From assembly GCF_001006305.1 (NCBI RefSeq), contig NZ_LBHJ01000001.1, forward strand, positions 248,001 through 312,000: a DNA stretch of 64,000 bases, read 5' to 3'. The DNA comes from Silvibacterium bohemicum (GTDB lineage Bacteria > Acidobacteriota > Terriglobia > Terriglobales > Acidobacteriaceae). The notes beneath the pieces were generated by a model. That model saw only the letters and a list, made by a program, of their open reading frames with translations, was not told the DNA's origin and made no database searches. Numbering within the stretch: the stretch's first letter is position 1; each line of letters begins with the position of its first letter. Shown here one piece after another: positions 47,786-56,677 of this stretch. The position numbers were made by a program, and so were the translations under genes.

Positions 47786-48126
47786 CGTCTCCCGGCTCCT
47801 CCTGCCTTGATCGATCCAGACGCCTCGATCTAGCCCGATTCGTCAACCGGGTGCGTCGATTCGATCAGGCGCATGCAAGTCAGGAGTCATTGGCTGCCGG
47901 CGAGGCAGCGGTTGGGATAGGCGAACCCCTCCGCCTTGCTTTCAGCTTCGCGGCAGAGGGGGTGCTGCGTCAAGCTGTTGCTCCCATGGACAAATCGCGC
48001 CCGTCCAGTTGCGACGTGGTGAAATCGGTAATCGAATTGATGGCGGATGACGGATTTGTCATCCTTTTGCAAGGCGGGGGGAAGGTTAGGGTAAGAGAGT
48101 GTGCTCAAGGCCGTACACTCATCGAA
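47786..48126. other. Intergenic region without a supported gene
   Basis: This space between crcB and the response regulator promoter has overlapping open frames on both strands (for example 47851-48231 on the plus strand), but their products are of low complexity and lack a ribosome binding site or family motif. A CTTTTGCAAGGCGGGGGGAAGG stretch is the only compositional oddity (described as a region near 48063-48085). I see no RNA gene here. Confidence 0.4.
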
Positions 48127-48212: not shown

Positions 48213-48887
48213 GTGCGGCTGCTCGTCGTAGAGGACGACAACACAATTCGCGATTTTCTCACCCGGGCTCTCACCGAAGGCGGTTTTCGCGTGGATGCCT
48301 GCGCCGAGGGCAAGGGCGCCGAGCGTCTGGCGGTCGAAGGAGTGCATGACGCACTGATCATCGACCTGACGCTGCCGGATATGGACGGCTTGGATCTCAT
48401 CGGCCGCCTGCGCGCCCAGGGAGTCAATGCCCCGGTGCTGATCCTCTCCGCGCGCCGCTCGGTGGATGAGCGGATCCTCGGCCTGGAACGCGGCGGGGAC
48501 GATTACCTGACCAAGCCGTTCGCTGTGGCTGAGGTCCTGGCGCGCCTGCGTGCCCTGTTGCGCCGCAGCACGCCGGGCCAGCAGGAAGCCACCCGGCTGC
48601 GCGTCGCCGACCTCGAACTCGACCTCATCCGCCGCGAGGCGCACCGCGACGGCATTGAGCTTCAGCTCACCCAGCAGGAGTTCGCTCTGCTGGAATATTT
48701 ATGCCGCAACGCCGGCCGCGTGGTGACCCGCGCCATGGTCCTCGACCACGTCTGGAAGATGCGCATCGATACCTCGACCAACATTGTTGACGTGCACATT
48801 CACCGCCTCAGGAATAAAGTGGACAGGGAAGCAGCACGACCGCTCATACGAACCATGCGGGGGGTTGGGTACGTTCTCACGGATTAG
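48213..48887 (+). CDS. OmpR/PhoB-type response regulator
   Basis: The GTG at 48213 has AGGGGAGG 7 bases upstream and gives 224 residues starting VRLLVVEDDNTIRDF. The receiver has the acidic pair EDD, phospho-acceptor Asp51 (ALIIDLTLPDMDG) and Lys in DYLTKPF. The C-terminal winged helix reads LQLTQQEFALLEYLCRNAGR and TNIVDVHIHRLRNKVD. It overlaps the next kinase gene by about 20 bases, so the pair is one operon. The promoter holds spaced repeats at 48148-48197. Confidence 0.95.
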   Translation: MRLLVVEDDNTIRDFLTRALTEGGFRVDACAEGKGAERLAVEGVHDALIIDLTLPDMDGLDLIGRLRAQGVNAPVLILSARRSVDERILGLERGGDDYLTKPFAVAEVLARLRALLRRSTPGQQEATRLRVADLELDLIRREAHRDGIELQLTQQEFALLEYLCRNAGRVVTRAMVLDHVWKMRIDTSTNIVDVHIHRLRNKVDREAARPLIRTMRGVGYVLTD

Positions 48888-50361
48888 CGGGTCTTTTTAT
48901 CACACCGCGGCCTGGCGGCTGGCCTTGCGCAGCACCTTGGCCTTCGCAGTGGGCAGCGCGGCCGTATTCGTGCTCATGTATGGCCTGGTAGCCAGCGCAG
49001 TACGCGAGCGCGGCGACTCCTGGCTCATCGGCGAGAGCGAGACCCTGAAGCAGGTGGCGTCGACCACGCAGCGCGACGCCCTCTACGGCCGTATCGTGGA
49101 AGAGGTTGCCGAACTGGCCACCCAGGAGCTGGCATACGACGGAAAGGGAAATCATCTCCCCGAAAACACCGTTTTTTTTCTGCAGACAGACAACTCCGGC
49201 CGGCCCCCACTCTGGGTCGGTCCCACGAATAATCAGCCCTTTATCGATGCCATCGGCAGGCTGAATGTCCGCGAGCATACGGCCATTTCGATCCGAATGG
49301 CCGGTTGGCGCTCGCCGTTTCGTGTTGTGGCTGCGGATTTAGGAACGGACGGGGGAAGAATCTACCTCGGCCTTCTCGACTCCAGCGCCAGCGAGCTGCT
49401 CTTCCATCTCCTGCTGTGGTTCGTCTTCGGCTGGATATGCATGGTGGGCTTCGGTTTCCTCAGCGCCGTCCTCGGTCTGCGGCGGACTCTGAAGCGCGTC
49501 GACGCCATCACCACCGCTGCTTCGAGCATTGATACCTCCGATCTGGGCAGCCGGGTGTTTTCGGCCAGCCAGCCGAATGACGAAATCGCTCGCCTCGCAC
49601 GTGCTTTCAACACCATGCTGGATCGCATCTCCGCGTCTGTGAATCAGCTTCGCACCCTTACCGACGCGGTTGCTCACGACATGAAGAGCCCCATCACCTC
49701 GGTGCGCGGTGGCCTGGAAGCGGCTCTCTCCACCGATGACGCCGAGACCTCGCGCGAATACGTGGCCAAAGCGCTGGAGCATCTCGACCGGCTGGCCGAA
49801 ATTGTCACCACTTCCCTCGACGTCGCGGAGGCCGAAGCCGGTGCGCTGCGCCTGCGCCGCGAGACGACGGACCTGGGTGAGCTGGTTCGCCGCGTGGCCG
49901 ATCTTTATACCCCGGCCTTCCACGACCATCGCCAAAGCCTGACGGTCGTCGCACCGAATCCGGTCACGGCCAATGTGGATCATCGTTTTTTTCTGCGTCT
50001 GATCTCTAACCTGCTGGAGAACGAGCTGCGTTATGCTGGGGACGGCGCCCGTATCGAGCTAAGGCTTGCGGCGGGAGAAGGCACAGCTGTCATTACAATT
50101 GAGGACGATGGGCCGGGATTTCCCCCCGAAATGGTCGGCCATCTGTTTCAGCGTTTCGTGAAGGGGAATGCGTCGGAGGGTCACGGGCTCGGCCTTGCTT
50201 TTGTCAAAGCCGTAGCGTGTGCTCACGGCGGCTCGGCGCGGGCGACGAATCAATCAGCAGCAACCGGAGTGGAAATCGTCGTAGAGATTCCGATTGGGAC
50301 GTTCGGGAATAGTCAGCCAGAAACCCAGCCTGCGGATGAACTACAGGAGGCGAGATCCTGA
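48865..50361 (+). CDS. Membrane sensor histidine kinase, partner of the upstream regulator
   Basis: The frame is open into the regulator gene; a TTG at 48865 giving 498 residues is the most plausible start, overlapping the regulator by 23 bases. Two membrane segments (LALRSTLAFAVGSAAVFVLM and LLFHLLLWFVFGWICMVGFG) flank a periplasmic sensor domain of about 130 residues. HAMP follows, then the H-box AVAHDMKSPITSVRGGLEA (His near 271) and the ATPase boxes NLLENELRYAG, EDDGPGFPPEM and GHGLGLAFVKAVA. The His-Asp-Met-Lys H-box differs slightly from the usual HExRxP. The signal is unknown. It lies 171 bases upstream of the polyketide synthase gene. Confidence 0.92.
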   Translation: MGTFSRISGSFYHTAAWRLALRSTLAFAVGSAAVFVLMYGLVASAVRERGDSWLIGESETLKQVASTTQRDALYGRIVEEVAELATQELAYDGKGNHLPENTVFFLQTDNSGRPPLWVGPTNNQPFIDAIGRLNVREHTAISIRMAGWRSPFRVVAADLGTDGGRIYLGLLDSSASELLFHLLLWFVFGWICMVGFGFLSAVLGLRRTLKRVDAITTAASSIDTSDLGSRVFSASQPNDEIARLARAFNTMLDRISASVNQLRTLTDAVAHDMKSPITSVRGGLEAALSTDDAETSREYVAKALEHLDRLAEIVTTSLDVAEAEAGALRLRRETTDLGELVRRVADLYTPAFHDHRQSLTVVAPNPVTANVDHRFFLRLISNLLENELRYAGDGARIELRLAAGEGTAVITIEDDGPGFPPEMVGHLFQRFVKGNASEGHGLGLAFVKAVACAHGGSARATNQSAATGVEIVVEIPIGTFGNSQPETQPADELQEARS

Positions 50362-50532: not shown

Positions 50533-51582
50533 ATGCGCATTGCTGCAACGGCTACTGCCTTTCCTGAACATTACTTCACTCAACAAGCGGTAGTCGACGA
50601 ACTAAAGACCTACTGGGGACGAGACGAAGCAACCGCGGCCGTGTTGGAACGGCTGCACTCACGCACCGGCGTTGCGGGCCGTCATTTTTCCCGCCCGCTG
50701 GGTGAATATGCGGCCCTCGATACCTTCGGGAAAACCAACAACGTATGGATTGAAGTTGCCGAGCAGCTGGGGGAACAGGCAATCGACTGTCTCCTCAAGC
50801 AGACCCATCTGACCGTCGATCAGATTTCCGCAATCTTCTTCGTCTCCGTCACCGGAGTCGTCAGCCCTTCCATCGACGCACGGCTGGTCAATCGCATGAA
50901 GCTCTCGCCGCACATCAAGCGCAACCCGATCTTCGGACTGGGCTGTGTTGCCGGCGCTGCCGGCCTCGCGCGGGCTGCCGATTACGTGCGGGCCTACCCC
51001 GATCAGGTCGCGGTGCTGCTCTCCGTCGAGCTCTGCTCGCTTACCTGGCAGCGCGACGACATCTCTGCGGCCAATCTCATCTCGGCGGGTCTCTTTGGCG
51101 ACGGCGCAGCTGCCGCTCTTGTCGTCGGCGATCGCGTTCCGCTGCCCGGCCCGCGCATCCTGGCCAATCATCAGGTGTTCTATCCCGACACTGGCTACGT
51201 CATGGGCTGGGATATCTCGGAGAAGGGATTCAACATCATTCTCTCTCCCGATGTTCCCAAGGTGGTTCGCGAGAATCTAGGCCACGATGTCGACCAGTTT
51301 CTGGCCGCCCACAATATGACCCGGAATGACGTAGGCACATGGATCATGCATAACGGTGGTCCCAAAGTTTTAGAGGCCAGCGCGGAGGCTCTGGGTATCG
51401 ACAACTCCGAGCTGCAGGTCTCCTGGGATGCGCTGCGCCGTGTAGGTAACCTGTCTTCGGCCTCCGTGCTCGTGGTTCTCGACGAGATCATGAAGCACCA
51501 GCGGCCCAAGCCAGGAACGCGGAGCGTGCTGGCTGCTATGGGCCCGGGCTTCTGCGCCGAGATGCTGTTACTTGAGTGGTAG
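50533..51582 (+). CDS. Type III polyketide synthase (chalcone/alkylresorcylic synthase family)
   Basis: A 349-residue thiolase-fold enzyme. The catalytic triad can be placed: Cys138 in PIFGLGCVAGAAGLARA, His273 in TWIMHNGGPKVLEA and Asn306 in LRRVGNLSSASVL. The GLGCVAGAAG and HNGGPKVLEA patterns fit bacterial type III PKSs that extend acyl-CoA starters with malonyl-CoA to alkylresorcinols or alkylpyrones. It is not a KAS III, whose triad motifs differ. It is followed 6 bases later by a flavin monooxygenase, as in the alkylresorcinol/quinone operons of Streptomyces (srs-type). The product is not predictable from sequence alone. Confidence 0.9.
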   Translation: MRIAATATAFPEHYFTQQAVVDELKTYWGRDEATAAVLERLHSRTGVAGRHFSRPLGEYAALDTFGKTNNVWIEVAEQLGEQAIDCLLKQTHLTVDQISAIFFVSVTGVVSPSIDARLVNRMKLSPHIKRNPIFGLGCVAGAAGLARAADYVRAYPDQVAVLLSVELCSLTWQRDDISAANLISAGLFGDGAAAALVVGDRVPLPGPRILANHQVFYPDTGYVMGWDISEKGFNIILSPDVPKVVRENLGHDVDQFLAAHNMTRNDVGTWIMHNGGPKVLEASAEALGIDNSELQVSWDALRRVGNLSSASVLVVLDEIMKHQRPKPGTRSVLAAMGPGFCAEMLLLEW

Positions 51583-51588
51583 TGATCG

Positions 51589-52710
51589 ATGCCGGGCCTG
51601 AGTTGCGATGTACTGGTAGTGGGAGGAGGTCCGGCAGGACTGACGACGGCAATTGCTTTACGCAGTCGCGGCGCCAATGTACTGCTGGCCGACTCCCAAA
51701 CGCCGCCCATCGATAAGGCCTGCGGCGAAGGCATCATGCCCGATGCGCGCCGCGATCTGGCGCACTTGGGCGTGGAACTCCCGAGTTTTCACGGCTCAGA
51801 ATTTCGCGGCATACGCTTTTGCGATCGCCGCTCCTCTGCTTCCGCTGACTTCCCCTCCGGCAACGGCCTGGGCGTGAGGCGAACCGTGCTTCATCGCGTG
51901 CTGGTGGATTGTGCGGCCGCCGCCGGGGTGCGCCTCGCCTGGAAGACCAACGTCTCCGTCAAGCCGGGGCAGCCGCTGCGCATCAATGGCGAAGAGGTGA
52001 AGTACAAATACCTCGTCGGAGCGGATGGCCAATCCTCACGCGTGCGCTCCTGGGCCGGACTCGACGACGCCACCCTCTTCACCCGGCGTTTTGGTTTTCG
52101 CATTCACTACCGCGTCGCCCCCTGGAGCCCGTACGTCGAGGTTCACTGGGCTGCGGCCGGGCAGGCGTATGTAACTCCGGTTGCCGACGACGAGATCAGC
52201 ATCTCGGTGATGACGCGTAACACCGACGCACGCAGCCAAGAGTTGATAGAGAGCATCCCAGAGCTGAGACATCGTTTGGGGGGAGCCAAAGTTATCACTC
52301 GCGAAAGAGGCGCCATTCTCACCACACGCCGTCTGAAATCGGTAGCTCGCGGCAATGTAGCGCTGGTAGGCGATGCCTCCGGTTCCTCCGATGCCATCAC
52401 CGGCGAAGGGCTGGCGGTGAGCTTTCGCCAGGCACAACTTCTGGGCGATGCACTGGCTGCGGAAAATCTCTCCCTCTATCGGAAGAAGCATTCTTCCATC
52501 ATGCAGCTGCCTCAAGCCATGGCGCGGACCATGCTGCTGATGGATCGCTGGCCGCTCCTGCGTGAGCGTGCATTGCATGTCCTGGCCTGCGATCCGGGGC
52601 TCTTTCAATCCATGCTGTCCATTCACATCGGAGAGAGGCCGCTGCGGCCGTTCATCCTTCGCGAAGCTCCCGGCCTCGGCCTGCGCCTGCTGCGGCCGTC
52701 GCTGCCCTGA
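51589..52710 (+). CDS. FAD-dependent monooxygenase / geranylgeranyl reductase-like flavoprotein
   Basis: A 373-residue flavoprotein. The FAD motif is VLVVGGGPAGLTTAIALRSRG, the second motif is KYLVGADGQSSRVRSW, and the third is VALVGDASGSSDAITGEGLA. CGEGIMPDARRDLA after the first fold is typical of the polyketide hydroxylase and geranylgeranyl-reductase-like group. Placed 6 bases after the type III PKS, it most likely hydroxylates the polyketide product. No methyltransferase gene is present, unlike the Streptomyces srsABC operon. Confidence 0.88.
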   Translation: MPGLSCDVLVVGGGPAGLTTAIALRSRGANVLLADSQTPPIDKACGEGIMPDARRDLAHLGVELPSFHGSEFRGIRFCDRRSSASADFPSGNGLGVRRTVLHRVLVDCAAAAGVRLAWKTNVSVKPGQPLRINGEEVKYKYLVGADGQSSRVRSWAGLDDATLFTRRFGFRIHYRVAPWSPYVEVHWAAAGQAYVTPVADDEISISVMTRNTDARSQELIESIPELRHRLGGAKVITRERGAILTTRRLKSVARGNVALVGDASGSSDAITGEGLAVSFRQAQLLGDALAAENLSLYRKKHSSIMQLPQAMARTMLLMDRWPLLRERALHVLACDPGLFQSMLSIHIGERPLRPFILREAPGLGLRLLRPSLP

Positions 52711-52738
52711 ATTTTCGGCCCAATTCTATGGAGAAAGC

Positions 52739-53371
52739 ATGAAAGCTCGTCGCACGATCCTCAAATCCCCTCGTCGCACGATCCTCAGATCAATAGGCGG
52801 CCTTCTTTCGCTCGCGCTCTGTATCGGAGCCTCGGCTCAGACCGCCCCACAGGACGGCCAGAAAGTCACCGTTCATCTGGACCCCGCTACGACGCAGATT
52901 CACTGGACGCTCTCCGATCCGCTGCATACCGTGCATGGCGCCTTCGCGTTGAAGGGAGGCCTGGTCACCTTCGATCCTCAGACCGGCATGGCGCAAGGGG
53001 AGATCCTCGTCGACGTAATCAGCGGCCAGAGCGGCAGCCACGCGCGCGATTCGCGCATGCAAAAAGATGTTCTCGAGAGCGAAAAATTTCCGCAGGCCAT
53101 CTTTCATCCCGAGAAAGTGACGGGAAGCATTCATTCCGGCTCGAAACAAAGTGTCACTGTCAGCGGCACATTTACCATCCATGGAAGCGACCATCCCCTG
53201 GCGCTGGCCATGCAGGTCGAGATTGCGGGCAAAAACGCCACGGCCACCACGCACTTCGTCATTCCCTACGTAGCCTGGGGCATGAAAGATCCCAGCAGCT
53301 TTGTGCTACACGTAGGCAAGCAGGTCGACGTGGATGTCGCGGCAAAAGGCACGGTGGAAGGCTTGCAGTAA
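52739..53371 (+). CDS. YceI-family periplasmic lipid-binding protein
   Basis: The ATG at 52739 with GGAG 5 bases upstream gives 210 residues. The N-terminus has a Sec-type signal (LRSIGGLLSLALCIGASA) preceded by duplicated basic segments RRTILKS and RRTILRS, encoded by a 24-bp tandem duplication at 52746-52793. The mature domain has TTQIHWTLSDPLHTVHGAFA, MQKDVLESEKFPQAIFHPE and a C-terminal VDVDVAAKGTV, the YceI lipocalin-like barrel that binds long polyisoprenoid or quinone-like lipids. It lies 28 bases after the monooxygenase and may carry its lipid product. Confidence 0.9.
   Translation: MKARRTILKSPRRTILRSIGGLLSLALCIGASAQTAPQDGQKVTVHLDPATTQIHWTLSDPLHTVHGAFALKGGLVTFDPQTGMAQGEILVDVISGQSGSHARDSRMQKDVLESEKFPQAIFHPEKVTGSIHSGSKQSVTVSGTFTIHGSDHPLALAMQVEIAGKNATATTHFVIPYVAWGMKDPSSFVLHVGKQVDVDVAAKGTVEGLQ
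52746..52793 (+). repeat. 24-bp in-frame tandem duplication in the yceI signal region
   Basis: The unit begins CTCGTCGCACGATCCTCA at 52746-52763 and again at 52770-52787. The remaining bases differ slightly (AATCCC versus GATCAA). The translated units are RRTILKSP and RRTILRSI. Confidence 0.85.
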
Positions 53372-53390: not shown

Positions 53391-53422
53391 TACGCCGGAA
53401 TGCGGTGTGGCATTCCGGCGTA
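53391..53422. terminator. Perfect 13-bp hairpin between convergent genes
   Basis: TACGCCGGAATGC (53391-53403), loop GGTGTG, and GCATTCCGGCGTA (53410-53422). It lies 19 bases after the yceI stop and 32 bases from the stop of the gene at 53455. There is no T-run on either side, so it may be an intrinsic terminator of unusual type or an RNA-end protector. Confidence 0.65.
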
Positions 53423-55309: not shown

Positions 55310-56677
55310 CTATTGAGGAGGCGGTGTAGAACTCCCCGAACCAGACCCGGAGTTGCCGAAACCGCTAGATCCAGAGTTGCCAAAACCGCTAGATCCAGAG
55401 TTGCCAAAGCTTCCACTACCGGAATTGCCGAAACCGCTAGATCCAGAGTTGCCAAAACTCCCACTACCGGAATTGCCAAAGCTGCCAGACCCGCTTGACG
55501 AACTCCCAAAGCCGCCGCTCGAACTCCCATAGCCACCGCTCGACTGCCCGCCACCGAATGACGAACCGCCTCCGATACCACTGGAGAAGCCTGAACCGGT
55601 GCTGGTTCCGTTCGTCCCGTTCGCTCCAGTGGCGCCATTCAGGTTCGTCTGGCCGCCGATGCCTGAGGCCTGCAGCTGATCTTCGAGCGGATCGTAAACG
55701 AACTCCCACTGGTTGTAGTGCTTCTGCTTCTTGTATTCCTTGATCGAAGCGCGCGTGTCGGGAATCACCACGCCAACGATCGGTCCCGTACTGCCCAGAG
55801 TCGAACTGCTGCTGCCGGTGGTGCCAAAGGCTCCGCCCGTCCCTGTGCCAGCCGACGTCCCAGTGCCCGCGCCAGTTGTGCTTCCTGTCGTCGATCCGGA
55901 GCCTGTACCGCCGGTGCCCGAGCTGCCGGGATCGGTGCTGCTGCCCGTGGTCCCCGAGTTGCTCCCGAAGCTGCTGCCGGAAGAATATCCGGAGGACGAA
56001 CCCGACCCGAAGCTGCTCCCCGACGAACTCGATCCGAACGACGATCCTCCGCCAAAACTGGATCCGCCGCCGAAACTGGATCCCCCGCTTGAGCTCCCAA
56101 AGGAAGAGCCCGACGAGCCGTAGCCACCCGAACTGCTGCCAAAGCTGCTACTCGAGCTGCTTCCGAATGCGCTCCCGGAACTGCTGCCAAAGGCGCTGCC
56201 GGAGCTACTGCCTGAGGACGAACCCGCGACCGGCTGTCCCACCCCGCCCGCGCCTGTTCCGCCCAGCGCGTTCGCCCCGGCGGCTCCGGCGTTAGCCAGA
56301 GGCTGTCCGAAGAGGCCCATGGCCGGTACGTGAGCCTGGCCGAAGTAGACCATCTTCCAATCGTCCTTGTTGGTCATGGGGTCGACATAACGCTTGCGCA
56401 GGAAGCGGATCTGGTTGGTGTTGATCAGCTGATCCATGTTCGACGGGTAGGCGCCGTACTTTCTGTAGTAGAGCTTGATAGCCCTTTGGTACTGCTGGCC
56501 GCGATGGAGTAACTCCAGCTCTTTGTCCCGCTGGATGGATTGGGCGACCTTCGGCGCAGCCACGGCCAGCGCGATGAGGATCAGCGCCACCAGAAACAGC
56601 ACCGCGATGAGCACGAATCCGCTCTCGGAGCCGCTTGCAGCCTTGGCGTGCTGTCCGGATTGGGAGCGAAGATTCAT
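55310..56677 (-). CDS. Pseudopilin-like type II secretion protein with long Gly/Ser region
   Basis: A 455-residue protein. The N-terminus has a prepilin-type cleavage site (SGSESG-FVLIAVLFLVALIL) without the usual Glu at position +5. The next part resembles GspG (GQQYQRAIKLYYRKYGAYPS and MDQLINTNQIRFLRKRYVDP). From about residue 150 the chain is mostly Gly, Ser and Phe, broken once by VGVVIPDTRASIKEYKKQKH and QWEFVYDPLEDQL, and it ends in FGNSG repeats encoded by 24-bp DNA repeats. It is the last gene of the gspF-gspE-pilMNO operon. The long low-complexity tail is unusual for a pseudopilin. Confidence 0.8.
   Translation of the reverse strand: MNLRSQSGQHAKAASGSESGFVLIAVLFLVALILIALAVAAPKVAQSIQRDKELELLHRGQQYQRAIKLYYRKYGAYPSNMDQLINTNQIRFLRKRYVDPMTNKDDWKMVYFGQAHVPAMGLFGQPLANAGAAGANALGGTGAGGVGQPVAGSSSGSSSGSAFGSSSGSAFGSSSSSSFGSSSGGYGSSGSSFGSSSGGSSFGGGSSFGGGSSFGSSSSGSSFGSGSSSGYSSGSSFGSNSGTTGSSTDPGSSGTGGTGSGSTTGSTTGAGTGTSAGTGTGGAFGTTGSSSSTLGSTGPIVGVVIPDTRASIKEYKKQKHYNQWEFVYDPLEDQLQASGIGGQTNLNGATGANGTNGTSTGSGFSSGIGGGSSFGGGQSSGGYGSSSGGFGSSSSGSGSFGNSGSGSFGNSGSSGFGNSGSGSFGNSGSSGFGNSGSSGFGNSGSGSGSSTPPPQ
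55361..55500 (-). repeat. 24-bp DNA repeats coding the FGNSGSSG tail
   Basis: CCGCTAGATCCAGAGTTGCC and ACTACCGGAATTGCC units alternate along the 3' end of the pseudopilin gene. The DNA identity of the copies exceeds what the peptide requires, which suggests recent expansion by slippage. Confidence 0.7.

Follow-up and report, generated by a model that had tools for sequence, protein, structure and literature searches.

According to excerpts of the respective reports, the srs operon is composed of srsA, srsB encoding an ICMT-type methyltransferase and the hydroxylase gene srsC (PMC6669644, PMC8086630), and planctomycetal as well as cyanobacterial operons (hidABC, hierridins) combine a polyketide synthase (PKS), an FAD oxidoreductase and a methyltransferase, with alkylresorcinols obtained from the tested planctomycetal PKSs (PMC10896814). 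A report on lipid-binding YceI proteins, likewise available in part, describes isoprenoid or ubiquinone-8 in most of the YceI crystals it lists and protection of the envelope from lipid peroxyl radicals by BcnA-LcoA of Burkholderia cenocepacia, with the bound quinone proposed as the agent and enhanced lipid peroxidation in BcnA mutants (PMC9113575). The palindrome of the Escherichia coli regulator CusR is given, in an excerpt as well, as AAAATGACAAnnTTGTCATTTT (PMC11195947). Elements reminiscent of all these systems occur together in a 64,000-nucleotide stretch of the 6.46 Mb genome of Silvibacterium bohemicum (contig NZ_LBHJ01000001.1, positions 248,001 to 312,000, here called the window), where genes for a type III PKS, a flavin monooxygenase (FMO) and a YceI-family lipocalin follow each other downstream of genes for a response regulator and a sensor histidine kinase. 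The reading preferred here, which has about an even chance of being correct, is a regulated lipid module consisting of a PKS product, its oxidation by the FMO, carriage by YceI and a kinase-regulator switch. The features concerned, in window positions and with protein lengths in amino acids (aa), are:

50533-51582, + strand: type III PKS of lineage A, 349 aa
51589-52710, + strand: flavoprotein (FMO) with predicted PHBH/geranylgeranyl-reductase fold, probable hydroxylase, 373 aa
52739-53371, + strand: YceI-family lipocalin of the cassette subfamily with signal-peptide-like N terminus, 210 aa
48213-48887, + strand: response regulator of the OmpR/PhoB family (start set by eye; Pfam scan on 48243-48887)
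48880-50361, + strand: sensor histidine kinase with HAMP, HisKA and HATPase_c domains (start approximate)
48047-48062, no strand: CusR-box-like palindrome ATGACGGATTTGTCAT 5' of the regulator-kinase genes, candidate regulator site
53391-53422, + strand: 13-bp hairpin without T run just 3' of YceI, likely operon end

Conservation of the PKS-FMO-YceI cassette

A first-pass annotation, made from the DNA letters alone, had proposed three same-strand genes with gaps of 6 and 28 nucleotides (nt) for a PKS with an intact Cys138-His273-Asn306 triad, a flavin monooxygenase and a YceI protein, all of which holds. The PKS-FMO gap is 6 nt and the FMO-YceI gap 28 nt, with all genes on the + strand, and the Pfam matches lie throughout above the curated cut-offs, with PF00195 (Chal_sti_synt_N, 59 bits) and PF02797 (Chal_sti_synt_C, 71.8 bits) for the PKS (cut-off 27), FAD_binding_3 (PF01494, 66.5 bits, cut-off 22) for the FMO and PF04264 (73.3 bits, cut-off 23.7) for YceI. 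C138, H273 and N306 are present in the window PKS and conserved among 154 aligned related PKSs (C and H in 154/154 each, N in 153/154 with one gap).

Absence of conserved adjacency of the three genes in related genomes had been set beforehand as a refutation of that annotation, but the adjacency is conserved. Among 80 loci from named records (the best 80 of 87 found), the PKS gene is followed by FMO and YceI in 33, by FMO alone in 18 and by neither, as far as called, in 29; among 68 loci with a lineage-A PKS (PKS-A) from an even draw of 150 genomes within the family, the corresponding numbers are 26, 13 and 29. Chance adjacency of the trio is rejected on this recurrence. Genes in the relatives were called as simple open reading frames (ORFs), and the counts include 11 of the 80 named loci with less than 2.6 kb and five of the 68 family loci with less than 2.7 kb of downstream sequence. 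The two genome sets overlap (for example L043 of the named and G035 of the family set), and in the named set L119 is scored FMO-less despite an FMO match that follows the PKS, caused by a long ORF start, and L100 has an FMO score of just 55.

The surroundings of the trio are far less conserved. Any of six outer window neighbours (PhoU, FolD, CrcB, hyp108, HHH, IscA) is kept in five of the 33 named trio loci; in the remaining 28, with PKSs 56-62% identical to that of the window, none of the six is detected in the available stretch, so that the trio has outlived its surroundings. Trio-type loci are found, among others, in records labelled Silvibacterium, Paracidobacterium, Acidobacteriaceae, Acidobacteriales, Bryobacterales and Acidiferrales, and in one labelled Gammaproteobacteria (L087, by its record label alone).

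Co-occurrence of FMO and PKS is near-exclusive in the family set, as 51 of the 53 genomes (among 150) with a strong FMO profile match also hold a PKS-A (nominal Fisher p 1.6e-24, for genomes that share ancestry); the exceptions are G076 and, with a PKS fragment, G013. YceI follows within 700 bp in 34 of 54 FMO copies. Eight FMO-YceI pairs do not adjoin an intact PKS-A. Five of these are truly apart (G062, G078, G113, G114, G130); G076 has no more than a distant PKS match elsewhere, the G013 pair adjoins the PKS fragment and the FMO of G088 is truncated by the contig end.

A secreted-looking TPR-like protein of approximately 280 aa with a weak TPR match (C5; L083:7152-7988 with 26 aligned relatives, A4) adjoins PKS or YceI in many relatives and is also found beside YceI without PKS (L219, L223, L224). 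It is not counted as a cassette member, the window genome possessing just a remote match (4.2e-33).

A second PKS lineage with the same end genes

A second PKS lineage (lineage B, 30-34% identical) stands apart from lineage A, the separating branch being 2.1 long (support 1.0) in a tree that does not include locus L201. The content of the lineage-B clusters is PKS, S-adenosylmethionine (SAM) methyltransferase, DUF2306 membrane protein, FMO and YceI, with complete FMO and YceI in seven of ten fetched loci (L193-L199). The other three are L200 with FMO and a partial YceI, L202 with FMO and no YceI in the fetched stretch, and L201 with FMO and YceI, no called PKS and a damaged methyltransferase. 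A kinase-regulator pair of the window type is divergently oriented in five of the seven complete loci (L193, L195, L196, L198, L199) and also present in L200 and, facing away from FMO-YceI, in L201; within the sequence fetched, L194, L197 and L202 show no such kinase. Within the cassette subfamily, the lineage-B copies of YceI (8 rows) group in a single clade (100/99).

Related clusters vary in composition. Those of L203-L206 and L232, with PKS, methyltransferase and FMO, show neither YceI nor DUF2306 within the stretch. The acidobacterial clusters L112:7929-12772 and L113:4236-12221 are srs-like: besides PKS and ICMT methyltransferase genes, they hold one gene for an AMP-binding ligase and one for a flavoprotein that is a homologue of the window FMO (40% identical in L112 and 46% in L113 by tblastn), with no YceI called; an acyl carrier protein (ACP) suspected by eye beside the ICMT gene of L112 was dropped, as the ORF lacks a Pfam match. 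The type III PKS clusters of L203, L204 and L063 include genes for an ACP and a ketoacyl synthase, which suggests a possible dedicated acyl-starter supply, and lineage-B clusters encode a divergent 260-aa protein without Pfam match at E 0.01 (L193:6000-6779) in addition to the DUF2306 membrane protein (L193:5315-5950).

Linkage to a kinase-regulator pair and a candidate operator

Regulator (Pfam Response_reg and Trans_reg_C) and kinase are encoded 5' of the PKS gene on the same strand, with a kinase-PKS gap of 171 nt. The suggested tie of the cassette to this pair stands as linkage, which recurs in relatives together with a candidate operator. A kinase subfamily profile (A3), built from 16 kinases at linked loci, detects 37 copies in 36 of the 150 genomes; a cassette-type YceI is found at most 10 kb away from 26 of the 37, and the number rises to 28 if a type III PKS is accepted as neighbour too. 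Among the 23 copies outside the profile-building set, 14 are linked to YceI or PKS and nine are not.

The operator candidate arose from spaced 4-mer counts in 20 upstream stretches, of which eight contain ATGAMN6KTCAT compared with a maximum of five in eight shuffles. The looser letters M and K derive from the top discovery pairs, and as matches were seen before the later counts, these counts are not blind. The exact palindrome is located within 250 bp 5' of PKS-A in six of eight family loci with a kinase at most 10 kb away versus one of 60 others (p 1.7e-6), and the lone other locus, G096, has its kinase at the contig end. If the window and G035 are left out (L043, taken as the same contig as G035, was in the discovery set), five of six kinase-linked loci show the exact site, with a single mismatch in the remaining one. 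The distance from the end of an exact copy to the projected start of the PKS is 58-92 bp. Exact copies number eight in the full set of 140 PKS-A stretches (control mean 0.4, maximum 2), which makes the palindrome a minority feature.

In lineage B, the palindrome with at most one mismatch precedes nine of 14 loci (L193-L200, L202), namely all nine with DUF2306-FMO architecture and none of the five with YceI-less architecture, six of the nine positive stretches having come from the discovery set. It is not a YceI-wide site, with one exact copy in 84 stretches 5' of YceI versus a control mean of 0.55, and its occurrence 5' of the regulator (exact in four of 21; control mean 0.4, maximum 3) is weak by itself. 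In the 64-kb window, ATGACGGATTTGTCAT at 48047-48062 is the sole exact match to ATGACN6GTCAT.

The resemblance to heavy-metal systems is limited. Against the respective two-component models (TIGR01386/TIGR01387), regulator (cztR_silR_copR, 219.6 bits, cut-off 279.2) and kinase (187 bits, cut-off 292.55) both remain below the cut-offs, and in kinase residues 36-180, judged periplasmic by eye, no alignment column has His, Met or Cys in at least half of the 16 rows, which makes a conserved metal site doubtful. A strict copper sensor is therefore not supported.

At the other end of the cassette, the hairpin directly 3' of YceI (-36 kcal/mol over a 69-nt stretch, z -4.2) fits an operon end; consensus scans for promoters and terminators remained around shuffle level (2 versus a mean of 1.9; 6 versus a mean of 4.6). 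Further 3' (55310-56677, - strand), the window contains long Gly/Ser-rich repeats in an ORF whose N terminus appears pseudopilin-like by eye.

The cassette subfamily of YceI

The YceI N terminus is signal-peptide-like by eye, with an N-terminal hydrophobic stretch in 50 of 52 aligned rows. The predicted model (pLDDT 89) superimposes on BcnA (5ixh; VIA Z 19.9, 2.4 Å over 156 residues) and on a polyisoprenoid-binding protein (1wub; VIA Z 19.4, 2.8 Å over 163 residues; Foldseek 1.8e-12).

The cassette YceI subfamily is sharply separate from other YceI proteins. A profile of cassette YceI run on the 150 genomes gives complete matches at 180 bits or more, few fragments at 80-131 bits and at most 72 bits for the remaining rows listed, and in the YceI tree five other copies of the window genome, together with one copy of G102, are set off by a branch 4.3 in length (support 100/100); what is labelled as a sixth 'paralog' (L002_5_472) is a spurious ORF and to be disregarded. 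The window genome has eight YceI match rows in all, two of which adjoin each other and contain stops, probably representing one broken gene (G000:C12:714614-715118).

Cassette-type YceI is present in 78 of the 150 genomes, 50 of which also hold PKS-A. Counted are complete matches of at least 180 bits together with the fragmentary ones of G107 and G063; the fragments of G133 and of the second G072 copy enter only the kinase-distance count.

Proposed function and alternative explanations

Conserved linkage, the protein families and folds and a common palindrome are what the analysis shows; the acyl substrate, the hydroxylation, the quinone, the carriage by YceI and the signal are parts of the regulated lipid module that we infer. 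Judged from its family, the PKS would load a long-chain acyl starter, add malonyl units and release a fatty phenol or pyrone. The FMO, considering its fold and its near-exclusive co-occurrence with the PKS, would hydroxylate the ring, yielding in the case of a resorcinol a quinol/quinone. In the least certain step, the lipid would reach the periplasmic side, where YceI, whose predicted fold is shared with proteins mostly crystallised with an isoprenoid or ubiquinone-8, may bind it and shuttle it from one membrane to the other, the lipid having a redox or protective function in the envelope. Conserved linkage and the shared motif suggest that the kinase would sense an envelope condition and that the regulator would bind the CusR-like palindrome to turn the genes on. 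With a clean palindrome 5' of the regulator and a degenerate one 5' of the PKS, control in the window may depend on transcription that continues from the kinase gene over the 171-nt gap, or on the weaker site.

A number of observations weigh against this module. The shared ancestry of the genomes lets the p-values overstate independence, and 29 of the 68 family PKS-A loci are without a called downstream FMO, although three are cut short and two have an FMO just upstream. In the window, the PKS is preceded by just a two-mismatch palindrome and the clean copy stands before the regulator instead, a placement that speaks against the PKS being directly controlled in this genome. Exact ATGACN6GTCAT occurs eight times in the window genome, compared with approximately six calculated by chance and two for a reversed-pattern control; with a genome-wide count near chance, no regulon is delimited by the palindrome on its own. 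The solved protein nearest to the window PKS is Pks11 of Mycobacterium tuberculosis (4jao, 313.9 bits; next CylI, 222 bits), which carries the name of an alpha-pyrone synthesis PKS, so that a resorcinol product is not assured, and what such a pyrone-class enzyme releases would not obviously turn into a quinone. Further points of this kind, which concern YceI and the fold of the FMO, belong to two distinct alternatives.

The main rival, a serious possibility although at somewhat less than even probability, is co-regulation without hand-over, according to which the kinase pair and YceI would form an older envelope-stress unit, YceI would bind a general lipid (menaquinone, polyprenyl phosphate or damaged lipids) and the PKS-FMO lipid, produced in response to that stress as well, would act in the membrane by itself. 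In L229 and L231, indeed, YceI is the direct neighbour of the kinase pair, with neither PKS nor FMO present. L229 (4150-11561), from the genus of the window, is the natural minus-PKS state of the locus, as it keeps the whole outer neighbourhood of PhoU, FolD, CrcB, hyp108, HHH and IscA together with regulator (93%), kinase (64%) and YceI (64%), with PKS and FMO absent. The distance between kinase and YceI is 0.68-0.75 kb in six copies (G131, identical to L231, as well as G133, G104, G122, G044 and G081), and in the YceI tree rows from PKS-less loci are interspersed among PKS-A rows.

Moreover, 17 of the 78 genomes with cassette-type YceI show no type III PKS, with no E-value better than 3.8e-7, a threshold at which a very distant PKS could escape; four of the 17 are less than 90% complete (G024, G036, G057, G081), and genomes with PKS fragments (G087, G079, G013) are set aside. 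PKS-less genomes and bare kinase-YceI loci imply that the lipocalin has or had another ligand, and the PKS-less genomes weaken the role of product carrier that the first-pass annotation had given it. On the other hand, co-regulation alone does not require that FMO-YceI, adjacent in 34 of 54 cases, is the tightest pair and that at least five such pairs persist away from a PKS, nor that two PKS lineages both end in FMO-YceI.

An unlikely alternative, which would leave the linkage as it is but change the chemistry, is that the flavoprotein acts as a halogenase, reductase or epoxidase on the ring or the alkyl chain, with a product that is not quinone-type. The predicted FMO model (pLDDT 95) has a PHBH/geranylgeranyl-reductase fold, and the VIA ranking among named families is headed by halogenases (PltA, 5dbj, Z 37.6, 3.1 Å over 363 residues), followed by squalene epoxidase (Z 35.0, 3.0 Å, 365), PHBH (Z 34.5, 2.9 Å, 346), a geranylgeranyl reductase (GGR)-like protein (Z 34.5, 2.8 Å, 348) and GGR itself (3atq, Z 33.1). 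The fold therefore does not single out a hydroxylase among halogenase, epoxidase and reductase, and the FMO chemistry assumed above goes beyond it. The best NCBIfam model is the geranylgeranyl reductase family (TIGR02032), whose cut-off of 158.8 bits is missed with 106 bits. On the side of a hydroxylase, the homologue in L112 and L113 sits with PKS, ICMT and AMP-binding ligase genes, as does the hydroxylase, in the excerpted descriptions, in srsABC.

Residues G12, G14, G17, D146 and G147 of the FMO are invariant in 48 aligned rows and fall into the GxGxxG and DG motifs of group A flavin monooxygenases. In the GD pair, G261 is found in 48 of 48 rows and position 262 is D in 40 and E in eight.

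Inherited synteny without functional meaning, for which the relatedness of the host genomes could speak, is very improbable, as 28 of the 33 named trio loci show no outer neighbour and FMO-YceI recurs at the end of the clusters of the second PKS lineage.

Beyond the regulated lipid module as such, a more specific form can be envisaged, rather unlikely as it is at present. It would be a self-contained periplasmic redox-lipid system in which an envelope signal elicits synthesis by the cell of a polyketide quinol distinct from its respiratory quinones, to be held by a dedicated lipocalin that would quench radicals or carry electrons through the periplasm. If true, this would be an analogue of BcnA-ubiquinone with ligand synthesis, carrier and sensor encoded together. 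Two PKS lineages beside FMO-YceI, often with the same type of kinase, provide a short list of candidate YceI ligands and a possible inducer circuit, whereby a job might be assigned to a widespread, poorly understood lipid-binding family; they also hint at a regulated phenolic-lipid pathway in soil bacteria with little-known envelope biology.

Some PKS relatives were seen in a plasmid collection, from which two of five fetched records are without annotation in the relevant stretch. PKSs at 37% identity adjoin an ICMT gene in two of the five, and a Streptomyces PKS at 32% identity sits with cupin and P450 genes. On a plasmid of Streptomyces sp. NBC_01237 (L120:5007-8200, a stretch without annotation), a PKS 50% identical to that of the window has an FMO homologue next to it and a divergent UbiA prenyltransferase gene, which hints at a possibly prenylated product.

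Comparison with described systems

The first-pass annotation had placed the cassette with Srs-type operons. The pairing of a type III PKS with a flavin enzyme is indeed shared with srsABC of Streptomyces griseus, where excerpts describe a type III PKS and a hydroxylase in one operon (PMC6669644, PMC8086630). The remainder of the comparison does not extend to the window, as by gene content its cassette has no methyltransferase and possesses YceI and the kinase pair in addition, and the nearest solved PKS is Pks11. No ICMT or other methyltransferase gene is located between the three window genes or among the scanned neighbours, and the two ICMT matches of the genome lie on C24 and C4, not on C1; thus the cassette is not classed as an srs operon.

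With the hidABC and planctomycetal operons, as far as they are excerpted, the window shares a PKS together with an FAD oxidoreductase and differs in their methyltransferase and gene order, YceI not being named in the available part of the description; the lineage-B clusters with PKS, SAM methyltransferase and FMO come closer to these operons than the window does. The 'S. ferox' operon is described, in the same partial source, to include a gene for a 'lipid/isoprenoid-binding protein' (PMC10896814), which hints that the link between PKS and lipid binder may extend beyond these genomes.

BcnA of BcnA-LcoA is, like the window protein, a secreted YceI lipocalin, and the predicted window model matches its fold. 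Unlike the window YceI, BcnA has, according to the excerpt, a cytochrome b561 and not a biosynthetic operon as its partner, and ubiquinone-8 as proposed ligand. With CusRS, CopRS and CzcRS, the regulator shares cztR_silR_copR as its best NCBIfam model, and ATGAMN6KTCAT has the outer bases and the spacing of the CusR palindrome as excerpted (PMC11195947); at variance with those systems, the window pair scores under the family cut-offs and shows no conserved His, Met or Cys column in kinase residues 36-180.

In the open-access library searched, 'type III polyketide synthase' was not found together with 'YceI'. The PKS-FMO-YceI and sensor module is real and apparently undescribed, and set beside the known systems it is a phenolic-lipid operon with its own lipocalin and sensor pair.

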